This document shows, piece by piece, positions 15,189-59,739 of a DNA stretch of 64,000 bases. The DNA lies in contig BLSF01000018.1 of NCBI GenBank assembly GCA_012862575.1, positions 129,680 through 193,679 of the forward strand. The letters run 5' to 3'. Origin of the DNA: Parietichytrium sp. I65-24A. Lineage: Eukaryota; Sar; Bigyra; Thraustochytrida; Thraustochytriidae. The notes under the pieces were generated by a model. That model did no database searches. It was given only the letters and a program-made list of their open reading frames with translations, and was not told where the DNA came from. How positions within the stretch are numbered: position 1 is the stretch's first letter; each line of letters opens with the position of its first letter. Made by a program: the position numbers and the translations under genes.

Positions 15189-15790
15189 TCTGCGACACCG
15201 ATGTGCCTGCTGTCACCTGCTGTCACCTGCTACAAATGCTTGCGCGTTCTTTCTAAGTTCACTCCTCCCCCTCCACCCGTCAAGCTCGTCGCCTCCACCA
15301 CTCTCCAATACTCTCCACCACTCTCCAATACTCTCCACCACCCTCCACACTCTCCACACTCTCCACACTCTACCACTCTCTGCACCTCCGCATACCTCCG
15401 CCACTGCGAGGTCCTAAGAGCTTGAGTATTGACTGTGAGTCCAGCACTACTATTATTAGTCGAATATTACACAAGGAAGCGTACCCTGAGGTATGGCATT
15501 AACGTCACAAGTAATTGCTAATGAGGGCTACCAGCTTTAAACAATTCAAAAAAGATTTTTTTCTGTTCTGACAGACTGGGGACAGCAATTACCAGATCTG
15601 GGGTTGTTTCATTCGGGACCGGAGAGTAGTCATTCTGAACCAGTCAGAATCACGAAACTTTTTGAGAGTGGAAATGACATTTTCTTGTCTCGGTGCCGCA
15701 GTGAGCTGTTGACTGTCAGAGTACCGGTACAGGTGCGCGGGTTCAGGTTGGCAGAGGACATGTAGAACACGTTGGAGTTTGTCGCAGCGG
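15189..15790. other. Intergenic with CTCCACCACT-type repeat
   Basis: It contains a pyrimidine-rich tandem tract at about 15294-15385 (variants of CTCCACCACTCTCCAATA, then CTCCACA). Closer to the transposase there is a self-complementary CCAGATCTGG next to a TA (15590-15601) and a perfect 7-bp inverted repeat ATTCTGA/TCAGAAT (15632-15650). These could belong to the transposon's 5' end, but that is not shown. Confidence 0.5.
15294..15385. repeat. CTCCACCACTCTCCAATA tandem repeat
   Basis: About 90 bp of a pyrimidine-rich 9-18 bp unit lie about 110 bp upstream of the PHF5A start. Confidence 0.8.
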
Positions 15791-17401
15791 ATGTCAACAA
15801 GGGCCAAGAGAGCAGCGCAAGACCACGATGGTGACCAAGGTTCTCATAAGGTCAAGAAAAGACTCACAAACGACCCGGATAAAGTCGTGGCGCAACTTGA
15901 GCGCTTGGCCCACGCTCGCGGGCGCCGCTCAGTTTTGACGCGGGAAGAGCGCATTGACGTGCTCCACGCATATTTTGCGATCGTCAAAAGTGGGCTTGAC
16001 GAAGCAAAAGCAGGTGGCCGGAAAGCATCAGACGCGCTGCAGAAAGCAGCTACTTTGCTTGGGCGATCAAAATCTACCGTGGCAAAAGTCGTCAAAAACT
16101 GGACAGATCACATTCACTCTGACCAAGAGGCATCGATAGTGGAGAATGTAATCGATGCGGTCTCCAATCGCGGAAATAAAAAAGAAAAGCCATCACGAGT
16201 ATCGAATGCGCTGAACGTGTTTCGCAGCGTTCGGGACCACGTTCGCGAGAAACGCATTAATCGCGAGAGAATTACAGCTCGTCAAGTCCTCGATTATTTG
16301 TTAGAAAAAGGATTCATGGAGGGACAGCCGGAAAGTCGAGGTATGGATGACACACATTTCCTCAAGGCCGAGCTTCGAGCGACTCAGCGCTACCTCGCCC
16401 GCAAAGGATTTCGTTGCGGAGCAACATCTGGCAAGATCGTTATGGACCCCGACTGTATCGCAGAGCGCAACGCATATCTTCGCGCACTTCTTGCGAACAG
16501 GGCGCAACCGATTGAAAACCGTTTTGTGGAGGTCTATCTTGACGAGGCCTATCTCCATGAGCATTATCACCGCGACGATTGCTCTCCCTTCGATCCCAAT
16601 GACGAGCAAGACTTCTACTTTAAAACCCCTACAGTCGGGAAGCGATTCTGCATGCTTGTTGCGATCGAAAATAGGTTCGCATACGCTCGGCTTGTCCCAG
16701 ACACGTTTTGGTCGAGCTGCCCGGATTCAAGGGAATCTCACAAAGGAGACTATCGCAGGAATTTTTCAGGGGAGAGCTTTTTAAAGTGGTGGCGCGAGCA
16801 GCTGCTTCCCAACTTAAGCTCCCCGTCTATCATCATAATGAATGGAGCACCGTACCACAAAACGACCCCTTTGGATGTGCCGAACCCTCGGAGAATGAAG
16901 AAGGCGGAAGCGATCAGCAAGTTGGTAGAGCTTGGCATTCATCACGACGACGATATTTCGGCAGCGGAAGCTAAAGTATTACTACGTGATTGGACGACTC
17001 AAAATGTCAAGCCCGAGGCAGTAGCATTCGCGGAGCTCCTTGGCCACCGCGTTCTGTTTACGCCGCGGCACTACTCTGACCTCCAGCCAGTTGAAGCACT
17101 TTGGGGCTTCGTAAAGGCCAACGTCGGTCGTCAATACACTGCTGAGACTACCCTAGTTGACGTGAAGAACAGATTGGACATTGAGCTTGACAATCTTAAT
17201 TCTGCTGGGGGCCAAGCGATCGTGAAACGAGTTGTGGATTCTATAAACCCGAAAATTGAGGCGTTTTTGGCAGAGACTCGGGCTGAAGAGGCCGCCGAGG
17301 ACGAGGAGATTGAGCGAGAAGAAACAGAAGAGCTTGTCGAGCTGTTTGAAGAACTGGAACTGACATTCAATGATGACGGGGACTGCATTGGACCTTTGTA
17401 G
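15791..17401 (+). CDS. Tc1/IS630-like DDE transposase, open but with an altered catalytic residue
   Basis: A cut-and-paste transposase of the IS630/Tc1/mariner (DDE_3) type. The first ATG is at 15791 (536 aa); the frame is uninterrupted. Seen: a helix-turn-helix-like N-terminal part (LTREERIDVLHAYF, LLGRSKSTVAKVVKNW); the first catalytic Asp in VEVYLDEAYLHEHYH (about residue 255); the second motif reading IIMNGAPYHK, where the family normally has MDGAPYH or MDNA.H, so Asp is replaced by Asn through one base (AAT for GAT); the third acidic residue in DLQPVEALWGFVK. An acidic Glu-rich tail follows. The altered second residue predicts no strand transfer, yet the frame stayed open: either the insertion is young with a recent loss, or the protein has been kept for another role. 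Clear terminal inverted repeats were not found. Confidence 0.85.
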   Translation: MSTRAKRAAQDHDGDQGSHKVKKRLTNDPDKVVAQLERLAHARGRRSVLTREERIDVLHAYFAIVKSGLDEAKAGGRKASDALQKAATLLGRSKSTVAKVVKNWTDHIHSDQEASIVENVIDAVSNRGNKKEKPSRVSNALNVFRSVRDHVREKRINRERITARQVLDYLLEKGFMEGQPESRGMDDTHFLKAELRATQRYLARKGFRCGATSGKIVMDPDCIAERNAYLRALLANRAQPIENRFVEVYLDEAYLHEHYHRDDCSPFDPNDEQDFYFKTPTVGKRFCMLVAIENRFAYARLVPDTFWSSCPDSRESHKGDYRRNFSGESFLKWWREQLLPNLSSPSIIIMNGAPYHKTTPLDVPNPRRMKKAEAISKLVELGIHHDDDISAAEAKVLLRDWTTQNVKPEAVAFAELLGHRVLFTPRHYSDLQPVEALWGFVKANVGRQYTAETTLVDVKNRLDIELDNLNSAGGQAIVKRVVDSINPKIEAFLAETRAEEAAEDEEIEREETEELVELFEELELTFNDDGDCIGPL

Positions 17402-36943: not shown

Positions 36944-37952
36944 CTTTGCTTCCTCGAATGAAGAATGAGCCGAAGACAAGTTTTACCTGGCGAAACGAAT
37001 TCGAAGACCTCGCTCAGACCTCTTTCTTTGGCGCGCCCGTCCCGTGAGCATCCGTGAGCGCCTCTTTCAACGATGCTTCGCGTCCCACTTTGTCCTTCAT
37101 TCTAATTAGAAACTCTATTCGTTCATTCATTCATTCAGAACATCAATCAGATAAATCAGATCAATCATCAATCAGATCAACTAACTGACTAAGAGCAACA
37201 TACCCTCCAAGCTTACCCCTCTTGTAAAAGTCAGCTACCCCCACTTATTGCCTACCATCTTAGCTAGGAGTGCAACCAACCGCCTCTTTGCTTACGGGGT
37301 TGGTGTTACGCCACTTGTATTGGATGCGGTAGTCCTCAAAGAAGTGAAGAGATACCTTGCTAGCCAAGTGAATAATCGCGGCTAATGCAGTTTTAGCAGG
37401 TAGCAGTAACGGTATGGTAAGGGGTTGTTAACCAGCAATCTGGAAAACGATCTAACGCACGCCATGATACATTGACTTAGCGAGTCAACTTGAGCTGGAT
37501 GAAGCTTTGGATGTTTTGCCAATGGGTCACGTGAAAGCAATAGTTAGCTTTTCAAAATTGAACTAACAAACAAAACAAAATTATGATGGAAAAAAAATCG
37601 AAAAAATGAGCGCAAGTCCGACTTCAACTTCGACTCTTCCATCCAACGTGTGGCCAGAAAAGCGAAAATATCAAGAGAAACAGAACATTTTTGTGAATTG
37701 AGTTGCTCAGTTGAGCAATCATTTCTCCATTTTGAACACGACTCAAATCTCGGCGCCAACGTGAACGTGCATGGGCCATCATGGGCCCATAGGAATCATT
37801 TGGTGGCTTCAAAATGAATCAGAGGTATGGAGTTTCCTGCTATTCCAATATCGTATTACGGTGTCAAAAGTCGGTCGAAAGTCAGTCACAGAGAACGAGA
37901 AAGGTCAACAATTATTTTTCTTGGCACAAAGATCTGCATCAAGTGCACATAC
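36944..37952. other. Intergenic / 3' end of the LRR gene
   Basis: About 1 kb. It contains ATTC and ATCAATCAGAT repeats (37118-37190). The stop of the LRR gene must lie near 37840-37905: either a short spliced last exon after GGAATAG or a read-through into about 17 further codons. Which one cannot be decided from sequence alone. Confidence 0.4.
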
Positions 37953-40900
37953 TCTTCTCGATGCCAGCGCTCTGTTCTTCTCCAATGCGCGAGAGATCTC
38001 CATTTCTTCTTCAAAGCTGACTTTTGACCAATCAAGACTTTTCAATCAAACAAAAGGATATGAACATCATCCACAAAAAGAAATTTAGTGAGGCATATTT
38101 CTCTTTCCGCCAAAAAATGTCAAAGTCACACGTACACCAAATAGGTCAGCGCAGTGTTCTGCTCCAGCGCACGACTGATCGCGGATGCTCCTTCACCGTC
38201 AATTTTATTCCGCAACAGACTATTCCATTACAAAAAGACATGAAATTGTGAGTCACCGAGTCGGAAAAAGTTTGGCACGTTGCAAAACCTTTTCTCCAAA
38301 CCAATCTCAAAGTCACACATACGCCAACGTGGCCAGCACTGTGTTCTTCTCCAACGCGCGACAGATTGCTGATGCTCCTTCAATTTCAATCTTATTCCAT
38401 GAGAGACTATTCAATCAATCAAAAAGGACCTCAAATCGTCAGCCACAAACGACAAGGAAAGTCACTAAACTCCTTCGCCAAACTGGTTTTAGCGTCTCAC
38501 GTACCCCAACGTTGTCAGCGCAGTGTTCTTCTCCAGCGCGCGACCGATCGCTGTTGCTCCTTCGTCGCCAATCTCGTTGCTGCTAAGACTATTTCGTTAC
38601 AAAAAAACACGAGATCGTCAGCGAAGAAAAGACGAGAAATTGTAGCAAGCTACTAAATTCCTTTGCCAAACTAGTTCAAACGTCGCACATACTTCAAATG
38701 AGACAGCGCAGTATTCGTTTCCAGTGCGTCACCGATCGCTGATGTTCCGTCATCGCCGATTTTATTCCGCCAAAGACTATTTAATTACATAAGGACATGA
38801 AATCGTCAGCTACAAAAGACGAGAGACAAGACTTCCTCCGCCAAACCGGTTTCAACGTCAAACATACTGCAAACTAGTTAGCCCAGTATTTGTTTCCAGC
38901 GCGTGACCGATCACTAACGCTCCTTCATCGCCAATATTATTCCGCGAAAGACTATTTAATTAGAAAAGGTCATGAAATCGTCAGCCACAAAAGACAAGAG
39001 GACCTAGCAAGGCACCAAACCCCTTCGCCAAATCGGTTTTAACGTCACACGTACTGCAACGTAGTTAGCGCAGTGTTCTTTTCCAACGCGCGACCGATTG
39101 CTGATGCTCCTTTATCGCCAATTTCATTTCCGTAAAGACTACTCAATCAATCAAAGTGGACGTGGGATTATCAGCCACAAAAGACGAGAAAGTTTAGCAA
39201 GTTACAAAACGTTTTCACCAAACTAGTGTCCAAGCCACACATACTACAACTCAGTCAGCGCAGTGGTCTTTTCTAACGCGCGGCCGATCGCCGATGCTTC
39301 TCCATCGCCAATTTTGTTCTCAGAAAGACTATTTTATGAAAAGGACACGAATCGTCAGCCGCCAAGGGCGAGAAAGTTTTGCAAAGCACGAAACCGTATT
39401 CAATAGAACAGCATCAAAGTCAGACGTACTCCAATGAAGTCAACGTAGTGTTCATTTTCAGCGCGCGACCGATCGCTGATGATCCTTCATCGCCAATTTC
39501 ATTCTTATTGAGACTATTCAATCAATCCAAGGACGAGATATAGCCACCCACAATGAGCGAGAATTTTAGCAAGGGACACATTGCTTGGGCCAAAGTGGTT
39601 TAAACGTCCACGTACTTCAAGTCAGTCAGTGCAGAGTTCTTCTCCAACGCGCGACCGATCGCTGATGCTCCTTCAGCGCCAATCTCGTTATTATAAAGAC
39701 TAGTTCATTACAAAAAGACATAAATTCGTCAGCCACGAAGTTCGAAGATACTAATTCTTTTGTACCAAACCGGTGTCAAAGTCACACGTACTTCAGTGTA
39801 GTCAGCGCAGTGTTCTTCTCCAACGCGCGACCGATCGCTGATGCTCCTTTATCGCCAATTTCACTGGATTCAAGACCTAATTTNNNNNNNNNNNNNNNNN
39901 NNNNNNNNNNNNNNNNNNNNNNNNNNNNNNNNNNNNNNNNNNNNNNNNNNNNNNNNNNNNNNNNNNNNNNNNNNNNNNNNNNNNNNNNNNNNNNNNNNNN
40001 NNNNNNNNNNNNNNNNNNNNNCAAAAAGACATGAGATCGTCAGCCACTGAGATCGAGAAAGATCAGGAAGGTACTCATGGTTCCGCCGAACTGGTTTAAA
40101 CGTCACACATACTATAATGTCGCCAGGGTAGTGTTCGTCTCCAAGGCGCGACCGATTGCTGACCCTCCTTCAGAGTCGATCTCATTCCAAGAAAGACTAT
40201 TCAATTATTTAAAAAGGACATCGAATCGTTAGCCACAGAAGACAAGAAAATTTAGCCGGGTACCAACCTCTTTCCCGAAACCAGTGTTAAAGCGGCACGT
40301 ACTCCAATAAAGTCAGCGCATCGCTCTTCTCCATCGCGCGACCGATCGCTGATGCTCCTTCTGCACCAACTTCATTGAATCGAAGACTGGTTTTCAATCG
40401 AAAAGACATGGTATCGTCAGCCGCCAAGCCCTTGCAAGTATCAAGGTACACCAAATCTGTGTCAAAGTTTCACATACTCTAACGTCGCCAGGACAGCGTT
40501 CTTCTCCAACGCACGACCAACCGCTGATGCTCCTTCATCGTCAATGTCATTGGATCGAAGACTATTTAATTATGTGATGACAAAAAGACATGAAGTCGTC
40601 AGCCTCAAAGAACGAGAAAGTGTAGCAAAGCACTACGCTGATTCGCAAACAGTGTCAAAGTCACACGTACTCCAGCGTAGTCAGCGCAGTGTTCTTCTCC
40701 AACGCAAGACCGATCGCCGAGGCTCCTTCATCGCCAATTGCGTTCTTCCTGAGGCTATTCAATCAATTGAAGGACATGAAATCGTGAGATACAAAAGACA
40801 GGAAAACTTAACAAGGTACCAAAGTCTTTTTCCAAACCAGTGTTAAAGTCACACGTACTTCAACGTAGTCAGGGCAGTATTCTTCGCCAGCGCGCGACCG

Positions 40901-41106
40901 ATCGCTGTTGCTCCTTCGGCTCCAATTCCATTCTCACCAAAACTATTTAATCAAATAAAGGATACGAGTTCGTAAGCCACAAAAGACGAGAAGGACTAAG
41001 TCAGTGTCCAATTCACACGTACTCCAACATAGTCAGCGCAGTGTTCTTCTCCAACGCAAGACCGATCACTGGTGCTCCTCCAGCGCCAAATTCATTCGAA
41101 GAAAGC
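37953..41106 (-). repeat. Tandem array of about 185-bp exon-plus-intron units
   Basis: Seventeen units recur with spacing of 164-193 bp, except across the assembly gap (321 bp). Both parts repeat: the exon (GCGCGACCGATCGCTGATG on the plus strand) and the intron (plus-strand words such as ATCGTCAGCCAC, AAAGACGAGAAAG and AAAGTCACACGTAC). Confidence 0.92.
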
Positions 41107-41562
41107 CTATTTTATAGAGTAGGACAAGAAAAATTGTCAACCAGCCTCAAACCATGGACTAGGTCAGTAAATGTAGCGACGGTTTTCGCGAAACCTCGTT
41201 GTCCAAGTCCACAAAGTGAATGAATGTGAAGGTTTTACAGGAATCCCAAGTGTTGGACCAGGTCAATTGCTTAGCACAAGCACGACTTACCTCAAGCATC
41301 TGAGCGTTTTGTTTCCGTTGAGCGCTTCGGCAATCTTCGTCGCTCCATTTTGCCCAATGTGCATATGGGCGAGACTGTGCGTGAAAGGAAGAGAGTTAAC
41401 AGAATTCACAAAACTTGCTGCGTTGGGTCTTTCACTCAGCGATAGAATGACTCACCTCACTGCCACTTCCCGGTCGAAGGACTTCAGTCCTTCCCCCATC
41501 GAATCCGCACACAGAAACCTCTCCTTAACGCCACAAAAATCCTGTTCTTCGAACCGGCCCAT
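37953..41562 (-). CDS. LRR protein gene with one 84-bp exon per leucine-rich repeat
   Basis: An RNI/NLRC3-type leucine-rich-repeat protein of unknown partner. Exon 1 (41456-41562) encodes MGRFEEQDFCGVKERF to the start of repeat 1. Then come 18 visible LRR exons whose low ends are 41291, 41023, 40859, 40671, 40478, 40303, 40113, 39792, 39616, 39430, 39245, 39055, 38868, 38693, 38505, 38323, 38136 and 37953. Every one is exactly 84 bp except the last (85). All internal exons are bounded by phase-2 introns, with GTACGT or GTATGT donors in most and TAG-type acceptors. Each encodes a 28-residue repeat near LxxNEIGDEG-ASAIGRALEKN-TALTxL, and all 18 translate without a stop. Introns are mostly 80-109 bp and are themselves similar to each other. 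No NACHT, TIR, signal peptide or membrane segment is seen. A 138-base gap interrupts the array and may hide another repeat. The terminal exon is uncertain. Confidence 0.85.
39884..40021. other. Assembly gap (138 N)
   Basis: A run of 138 undetermined bases inside the LRR array. The surrounding intron would be 237 bp against a typical 100, so a repeat unit may be missing or collapsed. The acceptor next to the gap (CCTAATTT on plus) departs from the usual CTATT form, suggesting poor sequence at the edge. Confidence 0.95.
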
Positions 41563-57747: not shown

Positions 57748-59739
57748 ATGGGCTGTGGTCATGATGAAGAGATTGACAAGTATCTCGCAGAAATGCGTGC
57801 GCATCTGATGGATGCATATGTACAGGAGAAAGAATGCAAAGCGCTTGGGATACTCGCTTGCAAATATGATGCCAGGCCGAGCTTGATGACACACGGCGCT
57901 GGTGAACAAATCATTGTGGCGATGTTCGACCATCTGGGGAGTGCAGGCGCGCAAGAAGCTGCATGTGGAGCGCTAAGGAACCTCGTGGGTTTTTTGAGAA
58001 AAAACGGAATCAAGCTGATGCAACTTGGCGCCGGTGAGCGGATCGTTGCGGCCATGGAAAAGCATCTCGACCATGCAGGCGTGCAAGAAGCTGCATGTGA
58101 AGCACTCTCAAAACTCTCTTGGAGTGCTGAAATGAGAACCAAGTTGATGGATACAGCACACAACGCCGGTAAGCGGATCGTCGCGGCCATGAAAAAACAT
58201 CTAGACCATGCAGGCGTTCAATTAACCGCATGTCAAGCACTCTTAAGACTCTCTCAGGATACTGAGATTAAAATCAAATTGATGGATACAACACACAACG
58301 CCGGTAAGCGGATCGTTGCAGCCATGGGAAAGCATCTTGACCATGCAGGCGTGCAAGAAGCTGCATGTGAAGCACTCGAATACCTCTCTTGTAATCCAGA
58401 AATTAGAATCAAGCTGATGGATACATCACACAACGCCGGTAAGCGGATCGTTGCGGCCATGGAAAAGCATCTCGACCATGCAAGAGTGCAACGAGCTGCA
58501 TACCGCGTGCTTGAGACACTCGCTAAGGACACTGGAAATAGAATCAAGTTCATGGATACAACACACAACGCCGGGAAGCTGATCGTTGCGGCCATGGAAA
58601 AGCATCTCAACCATTCAAGCGTGCAAAGCGCTGCATGTTTAGTGCTTGTGAGACTCGCTCAGGACACTGAAATTAACATCAAATTGATGGATACAACACA
58701 CAACGCCGGTAAGCGGGTCGTTGCGGCCATGGAAAAGCACCGCAATAATTATGTCGTGCAAAACGCTGCATGCAAAATGCTTCATGCACTCGCTAGGGAC
58801 ACTGGAAATAGAATCAAGTTGATGGACACAACACACAACGCCGGTAAGCGGATCGTTGCGGCCATGGAAAAATATCTCGGCCATGCAGGCGTGCAAGAAG
58901 CTGCATGTCAAGCACTCTCAAACCTCTCTTGGAATGCTGAAAATAGAATCAAGTTGATGGATACAATACACAACGCCGGTAAGCGGATTGTTGCGGCCAT
59001 GGACGAGCATATGGAACATGTAGGCGTGCAGGAAGCTGCATGCTTGGCGCTTTGTTATCTCGCTGATGGAAATCCTGAAAATCAAATCAAGTTGATGGAT
59101 ACATCCCACAACGCCGGTGAGCGGGTCATTGTAGCGATGCTCATGCACCTGAAACATGCAGGCTTGCAACAAGCTGCATGCAAAGCGCTTTGGAACCTCG
59201 CTTGGAATAGCTCTGCCAACAAATACAAATTAGTGCAACTTGGTGCTGCTGAGCGGATCGATGCGGCCATGGAAGAATATCCGTCAGACTCAGACGTGCA
59301 TTTATCCGGAGCTCTTGCATTCTGGATCATCGCTGCGAGCAGTCCCTTCGAGCGGTTTATGACACTGAAGAGGAAAAGGCAATGTCGCATTCTGATGGGC
59401 ATTTTGTTCTATGGAGTTCTAATAGTATTGTTGGCATGTGGACTAGTTCTGAGACACATTTGGATTCATTCTCACCTCTACGTGCCTATTTTGACGTGTT
59501 TCTTAATAATGGGGGCTTCGTGCAAAAAAATCCGCCATTCTCTTCGCCCAACATCTGAATCCCAAGATGCAAGTTTGTCTGAATGCCGAGTGTGCTTCGA
59601 GAGACTTCATTGTGGGGAGCATCAACCCACTGCTTTCCAGTGCGGACATGTGGCGTGCAAGGCGTGCTCCACGCGGTTGGCCATTTGCCATATCTGTCGC
59701 GAACCAGTGAGGTCGAGGTTGCCGATTTACCTCCATTGA
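57748..59739 (+). CDS. ARM-repeat, two-TM, RING-finger protein (predicted membrane E3 ligase)
   Basis: A 663-aa single-exon protein. Seen in order: the N-terminus MGCGHDEE, a predicted dual acylation signal; about eleven armadillo-like repeats at about 50-535, nine of them 44-46 residues and highly similar (GKRIVAAMEKHLDH, AGVQEAACEAL, RIKLMDTTHNA); two hydrophobic segments at about 546-568 and 577-592 (MGILFYGVLIVLLACGLVL, YVPILTCFLIMG); and a C-terminal C3HC4 RING at about 613-655 (CRVC, QCGHVACKAC, CHIC). RING proteins are usually E3 ubiquitin ligases, and ARM repeats bind partners, as in plant U-box/ARM ligases, so a membrane-bound ligase with a repeat-based substrate reader is inferred. 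The near-identity of the repeats indicates recent expansion. Confidence 0.88.
   Translation: MGCGHDEEIDKYLAEMRAHLMDAYVQEKECKALGILACKYDARPSLMTHGAGEQIIVAMFDHLGSAGAQEAACGALRNLVGFLRKNGIKLMQLGAGERIVAAMEKHLDHAGVQEAACEALSKLSWSAEMRTKLMDTAHNAGKRIVAAMKKHLDHAGVQLTACQALLRLSQDTEIKIKLMDTTHNAGKRIVAAMGKHLDHAGVQEAACEALEYLSCNPEIRIKLMDTSHNAGKRIVAAMEKHLDHARVQRAAYRVLETLAKDTGNRIKFMDTTHNAGKLIVAAMEKHLNHSSVQSAACLVLVRLAQDTEINIKLMDTTHNAGKRVVAAMEKHRNNYVVQNAACKMLHALARDTGNRIKLMDTTHNAGKRIVAAMEKYLGHAGVQEAACQALSNLSWNAENRIKLMDTIHNAGKRIVAAMDEHMEHVGVQEAACLALCYLADGNPENQIKLMDTSHNAGERVIVAMLMHLKHAGLQQAACKALWNLAWNSSANKYKLVQLGAAERIDAAMEEYPSDSDVHLSGALAFWIIAASSPFERFMTLKRKRQCRILMGILFYGVLIVLLACGLVLRHIWIHSHLYVPILTCFLIMGASCKKIRHSLRPTSESQDASLSECRVCFERLHCGEHQPTAFQCGHVACKACSTRLAICHICREPVRSRLPIYLH
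58026..59105 (+). repeat. 135-bp coding tandem repeat (ARM units)
   Basis: About eight units at an exact 135-bp period (one of 138) within the ARM-RING gene. The word AACGCCGGTAAGCGGATCGT, or a close variant, recurs from about 58160 onward. The length is a multiple of three, so unit gain or loss keeps the frame. Confidence 0.92.

Follow-up and report, generated by a model that had tools for sequence, protein, structure and literature searches.

One-repeat 84-bp exons and hypervariable codons in a leucine-rich-repeat-only gene of Parietichytrium sp. and in its candidate recognition-receptor family

The stretch of Parietichytrium sp. I65-24A analysed here (64,000 nucleotides of contig BLSF01000018.1, positions 129,680 to 193,679, hereafter the window) carries on its minus strand, at 41562-37905, a gene for leucine-rich repeats (LRRs) in which exon junctions are in phase 2, as judged from the reading frame of the spliced parts. 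We put at about two in three the probability that this locus belongs, as an LRR-only member, to a large receptor-like family of candidate recognition receptors, shaped by concerted evolution together with diversifying selection. Four codons of each repeat are hypervariable, while the framework codons, with their synonymous sites, and the introns vary far less, whether compared within one locus or between loci. A view limited to one window misses that the family extends through the genome, that some codons are hypervariable and that sister arrays carry kinase or ROC-COR-TIR tails.

A 1-kb piece of the window array has at least 113 DNA matches in the 42.5-Mb genome (172 contigs). Grouped by eye, these fall into about 38 other places, 20 of which were analysed, with two more and with two loci on contig C88. 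The genome contains 528 copies of a 24-nt core of the exon (up to 3 mismatches allowed) vs. 0 for the reversed control; the window array thus does not stand alone. Since this pattern recovers only 243 of 285 known units (mostly from loci chosen for their likeness to the window), the true number of cores is probably somewhat above 528. Among 302 scored units from 25 loci, 285 are exactly 84 bp long and bordered by AG and GT/GC. The scan seeks a 27-codon core and rejects units with internal stops, i.e., dead units are excluded from these counts. Intron length peaks at 103 bp (36/190). The number of scored units per locus ranges from 4 to 24, some loci having more than one array, and reaches 32 for the two C88 loci pooled; this agrees with the earlier expectation of a variable unit number, and tandem gain is visible as adjacent identical units and duplicated five-unit blocks. 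For 80 of 190 units the closest intron relative lies within their own locus, where chance would give 5.5%.

Head peptides like that of the window gene were found at 13 of 20 fetched loci (the head peptide of L013, which has no ATG, was left out), and their alignment, window included, has 14 rows and 4 invariant columns. When grouped by eye, 11 of 20 arrays are localized within 10 kb of a contig end. This may point to positions near telomeres, but repeats can themselves break an assembly, and the last 200 bases of the 9 ends read contain no TTAGGG or TTTAGGG repeat. One contig end (L010:7100-7202), about 2 kb from an array, resembles by motif what we take to be the 3' end of the 18S rRNA gene and internal transcribed spacer 1, with no Rfam match. 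On C88, at about 100-122 kb (L031 and L032), three long kinase-tailed copies are clustered with several arrays and fragments. L025:2-1837 (plus strand), immediately upstream of an array of 84-bp exons, encodes an LRR_6 protein of 612 residues, whose repeats have the same length but are not separated by introns. Similar LRRs (50-54% identity) are present on two contigs of a viral collection (L035 and L036), where the match lengths exclude introns of this size.

The residue entropy, calculated for 226 units, is 3.4-3.9 bits at codons 2, 3 and 5 and 2.9 bits at codon 26. It is 0.04-1.16 bits at 21 of the 23 other codons, mostly with one dominant codon, and intermediate at codon 8 (2.29 bits) and codon 9 (1.61 bits). 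Placed on the LRR consensus, codons 2, 3, 5 and 26 and the junction residue split by the intron would form the concave beta-strand face, and the intron would split its codon in the middle of that strand. In 84 between-locus pairs with both introns diverged by 12% or less, 59% of the hypervariable nucleotides differ, vs. 10.6% of the other exon nucleotides. In these pairs the borders of the hypervariable part are one base wide: the difference rises from 0.24 at nt 4 to 0.69 at nt 5 and falls from 0.70 at nt 16 to 0.05 at nt 17. The 1602 between-locus pairs with at most 5 differences at the 68 other sites differ on average at 6.6 of the 12 nt of the block formed by codons 2-5, and the most distant pair class at 7.3 of 12 nt.

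Two block duplications, with 10 unit pairs, allow rates of change to be compared. Hypervariable codons changed at 11/120 nt, other scored exon codons at 18/690 nt, the introns of the blocks at 20/788 nt (p 0.001 vs. hypervariable) and the upstream non-unit DNA, head exons included, at 20/1401 nt (p 1e-5 vs. hypervariable). Hypervariable change is about 6 times as frequent as change in the flanking non-repeat DNA, and the changed hypervariable codons comprise 7 nonsynonymous and 2 synonymous cases. Because the hypervariable codons outpace both introns and upstream DNA in these duplications, diversifying selection is favoured over mere lack of constraint. As in repeats of the HET-D/E kind, a few residues per repeat change faster than neutral DNA, their surface position being deduced from the LRR consensus.

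Three array endings are observed: a kinase tail of about 1,000 residues with an RBR-like zinc region, a ROC-COR-TIR tail and, as in the window, none found. At L011, L017 and L022 the last LRR exon leads into a frame of about 1,000 residues with a protein kinase (Pkinase, expectation value (E) 5e-24 to 2e-27 on these loci and on an L024 fragment); by alignment, the kinase tail is also present at L014 and at two C88 loci. That this long common downstream frame is a mobile element was considered and rejected, the frame being the kinase. HCDLKPHN and DFDG are found in 7/7 aligned kinase tails. The usual kinase motifs are DFG and HRD, and we assume that DFD and HCD of the tails stand at their positions, which suggests an atypical but conserved active site. 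The C-terminal part of the kinase tails has a conserved Cys/His pattern. A model of the whole kinase tail has a mean predicted local distance difference test score (pLDDT) of 47.5, too low for structural claims. The L027 tail matches Roc (1.8e-18), COR-A (7.3e-14) and TIR_2 (1.8e-8); more ROCO pieces adjoin arrays on C35 and C4, and broken kinase or ROCO tails adjoin some other arrays. The five sister proteins of the kinase search and the L027 protein have no NACHT or NB-ARC match at E 0.001. Units of kinase-tailed loci do not cluster apart (0.14 vs. 0.22 permuted, range 0.07-0.41); separate unit pools per receptor class are thus not supported, and arrays with all three endings are built from units of one family.

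The window gene opens with a start exon of 107 bp, which holds the ATG and the head peptide (MGRFEEQDFCGVKERFLCADSMGEGLKSFDREVAV; 41456..41562, minus strand like all the following exons). The first LRR exon is a divergent cap-like repeat (LAHMHIGQNGATKIAEALNGNKTLRCL; 41291..41374, 84 bp, phase 2). Six 84-bp LRR exons follow over 40113..41106 (41106-41023, 40942-40859, 40754-40671, 40561-40478, 40386-40303 and 40196-40113), then a run of 138 N at 39884..40021, which leaves room for part or all of one extra unit, and a gap-side LRR unit of 84 bp at 39792..39875. Nine 84-bp LRR exons extend over 38136..39699, the first five being 39699-39616, 39513-39430, 39328-39245, 39138-39055 and 38951-38868, and the last four 38776-38693, 38588-38505, 38406-38323 and 38219-38136. 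The terminal exon (37905..38037) is a degenerate LRR-like unit running up to a stop, and no kinase or ROCO tail was found there. The original prediction counted 17 exons of exactly 84 bp. Sixteen are strict, i.e., AG-84-GT, from 41374-41291 to 38219-38136; the seventeenth, i.e., the gap-side unit, has its nearest AG one base upstream (85 bp with that AG), beside the N gap. In each LRR exon the first base completes a codon and the last two bases open the next one, and the spliced frame of the window gene, like the frame and splice-site spacing of units across the family, agrees with the proposed arrangement of one LRR per symmetric exon. The introns measure 80-109 bp, apart from one of 184 bp and the gapped one.

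The spliced protein was searched in Pfam as two parts, one on each side of the N gap, with the gap-side unit omitted. Only LRR models match (LRR_6, E 8.3e-37 for the first part and 6.1e-43 for the second), with no NACHT or NB-ARC match, and the repeats fit the ribonuclease-inhibitor (RI) type (LRR_6 class), with 28/29 residues. A profile of the window exons has 0 matches in 210,080 bases of reversed sequence, so the array is not a product of chance. Within the window, the 15 scored units differ pairwise by 27.7% in exons (105 pairs) and by 26.9% in introns (78 pairs), and only 2 of these 15 units have their closest exon relative inside the window; recent local amplification of the window array was therefore considered and rejected. 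That introns were copied along with exons is a point on which the first description was right.

These features could be combined as follows. Unequal crossing-over and gene conversion would keep the units alike, and variable cassettes would be exchanged or rewritten over short tracts. Diversifying selection for new partners (pathogen or non-self molecules) would keep the concave codons different. The kinase, ubiquitin-ligase-like or GTPase/TIR tails may relay a signal, and LRR-only loci like that of the window may serve as sensors that lack an output of their own, as decoys or as a store of units.

Several results weigh against this reading or narrow it. It is drawn from the DNA sequence of one genome, and the likeness of frameworks and introns between loci could come from recent expansion as well as from ongoing conversion. 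A third block duplication (L031), kept outside the counts above, shows no difference in its two unit pairs. Among 19 young same-locus pairs, not all of them independent, the excess is milder: 14/228 hypervariable nt changed vs. 44/2841 intron nt, with 17/1368 nt for the rest of the exon. Synonymous sites are raised in the block (the AAY codon 4 has a heterozygosity of 0.455 vs. 0.19), which is unexplained by point mutation and amino-acid selection alone; the block thus either predates its flanks or is replaced in one piece. An identical 12-nt variable word is found in 10 between-locus pairs (8 words), vs. 1.6 in shuffles (maximum 7 in 1000), but 5 of these 10 pairs are close relatives (at most 5/68 other differences). 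Common descent therefore explains part of the word sharing, and between-locus cassette exchange is weakly shown. One single case is ambiguous as well. In L012, units 3 and 4 show 7 differences, confined to a stretch of 25 nt around the block, against 0 in the other 265 aligned nt, and the cassette of unit 3 (the C45 exon) equals that of a C98 exon over 21 nt, the introns being different. This C98 exon differs from the C45 exon at 9/68 other sites and is nearer to it than average, with 7/274 closer. Conversion from C98 to C45, first taken as clearly proved, is weakened by this kinship beyond the block, and either conversion or common descent may account for the case. As for the RBR-like region of the kinase tails, it has no significant sequence match (IBR_2 E 0.9, in one of two tails; Ariadne-1 at E 1.8, behind protelomerase chains at 0.065). 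The top ten matches by fold are all RBR ligases or complexes that contain one (including 1wim, which we take to be a member of the RBR ligases), with a best E of 0.058 and a model pLDDT of 67. The resemblance of this cysteine-rich C-terminus to RBR ubiquitin ligases, as modelled, is a lead only. Finally, the window gene itself may be in decay: it has an N gap with an acceptor one base off beside it, its last exon is degenerate, and it lacks an output tail.

That last remark can be extended into the somewhat unlikely alternative that the window array is a relic, i.e., an inactive or decaying piece of an LRR-ROCO or LRR-kinase gene that keeps its frame solely through conversion refreshing the units. 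With its flawed acceptor and degenerate end, and with broken tails beside other arrays, the fact that none of the 48 matches to kinase tails and none of the 27 to ROCO tails in the genome falls on its contig (C18) would be understood in this way. Nevertheless, the start exon and the 16 strict exons are intact with open frames, the acceptor flaw adjoins an assembly gap, and brown algae too have LRR-only loci, according to passages of PMC11378527. A second alternative concerns the block itself. A local error-prone or templated process, analogous to programmed diversification, might rewrite the 12-nt block of codons 2-5 in young copies. The confinement of the L012 differences to 25 nt, the raised synonymous sites and the one-base-wide edges are consistent with it. 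Moreover, no source sequence in the assembly comes within 3/27 mismatches of the cassette of L012 units 4 and 5, while that of unit 3 has its near-exact C98 relative. This points to the former cassette as the changed one, and either loss of the donor or a rewriting confined to the block would account for it. This is a single case whose donor may be lost, allelic or unassembled, and 13 of the 19 young pairs have no hypervariable change; we therefore hold targeted rewriting to be improbable.

More improbable still is a neutral repeat in which the hypervariable codons are merely unconstrained, the rest (framework, synonymous sites and introns) being held by splicing and fold constraint, with neither diversifying selection nor a recognition role. 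The introns do share conserved stretches, and at every intron distance but the smallest the hypervariable nucleotides have nearly reached saturation, a pattern that free sites could produce. In the block duplications, however, the odds of hypervariable change are 3.9 times those of the block introns and 7.0 times those of the upstream non-unit DNA, and this upstream DNA diverged by only 1.4-1.5%, i.e., neutral sequence changes more slowly than the hypervariable codons. A bolder version of the receptor-family reading must also be mentioned: a VLR-like germline repertoire in a presumably heterotrophic protist, with more than 500 interchangeable one-LRR exons, a 12-nt binding-strand cassette swapped or rewritten over about 25 nt independently of framework and introns, and one exon pool feeding kinase/RBR-like, ROC-COR-TIR and LRR-only classes. 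We consider it unlikely in this full form; the heterotrophic habit is presumed from the intron-rich genome and from the lack of any light-harvesting match in it.

Elsewhere in the window, 58029-59208 contains a coding tandem repeat of 135 bp, of ARM type, in a single open frame that also has a RING finger match; these repeats are in tandem without an exon-per-repeat structure. A frame of 562 codons at 15713-17401 has a weak match to the DDE_3 transposase, under the curated cut-off. In the genome at large, 4 matches to PfaD-type PUFA synthase are weak and do not reach the cut-off, and 5.8S rRNA gave no match. The frame read for one triosephosphate isomerase copy (L037) is not fused to GAPDH; a second copy (L038) has a frame of 256 residues.

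Precedents for such arrays had been sought mainly in vertebrates, which proved too narrow: phase-2 LRR exons of 90 bp in Tetrahymena and of 72 bp in brown algae are also on record. Passages of Teng 2024 (PMC11378527; see also Zambounis 2012, cited therein) describe brown-algal ROCO genes with shuffling 72-bp phase-2 LRR exons, in which positive selection acts on concave sites; splice variants and loci with LRRs only occur there too. Compared with that description, the family likewise has a single LRR in each phase-2 exon, shuffled units, variability at concave sites, loci made of LRRs only and ROC-COR on some members (here the sister L027, not the window locus). It differs by its 84-bp RI-type exons and by the occurrence of a kinase plus RBR-like tail and of a C-terminal TIR. 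Alternative splicing is demonstrated in the brown-algal genes, whereas the present family is known from genomic sequence only.

For Tetrahymena, the parts consulted of PMC6564038 report thousands of genes with about 72,000 exact 90-bp phase-2 LRR exons over ten species, and its authors suggest that such an arrangement evolved only once. Tandem exons of one exact length, an extreme phase-2 bias, introns amplified with exons and recent expansions are common to both; the exons are 84 bp long and several hundred in number here. The main text of that paper does not contain the words "hypervariable", "concave" or "positive selection". The WD repeats of Podospora HET-D/HET-E evolve in concert, with four selected residues per repeat (abstract of PMC1805685). 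The likeness lies in repeats concerted within and between loci and in four surface residues under diversifying selection, the difference in the repeat type (WD40), and the abstract has no exon-per-repeat structure. In human NLRP3 the LRR exons preserve the frame and have their borders inside the beta-sheet (passages of PMC6642158). LRR domains of human NLR proteins thus resemble the window gene by RI-type repeats, frame-preserving exons and the position of the border; NLRP3 exons are 171 bp long with two LRRs, and likeness of introns between loci is absent from those passages. Among the matches listed in the literature (titles and beginnings of abstracts, with few subscription papers), none describes an array of 84-bp LRR exons or this combination of tails in a protist.

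The concept of shuffling one LRR per exon is thus already in print, and the separation of cassette and framework is the most interesting feature here. Beside Tetrahymena and brown algae, the family adds a case with another exon length, an RI-type repeat and extra output domains. The single origin suggested for Tetrahymena has to be set against brown algae as a further published case. With introns and framework codons used as internal clocks, it becomes measurable how the likeness of repeats and the diversification of binding residues stay apart, and this matters for the question of whether shuffling is a way in which unicellular eukaryotes form recognition repertoires.

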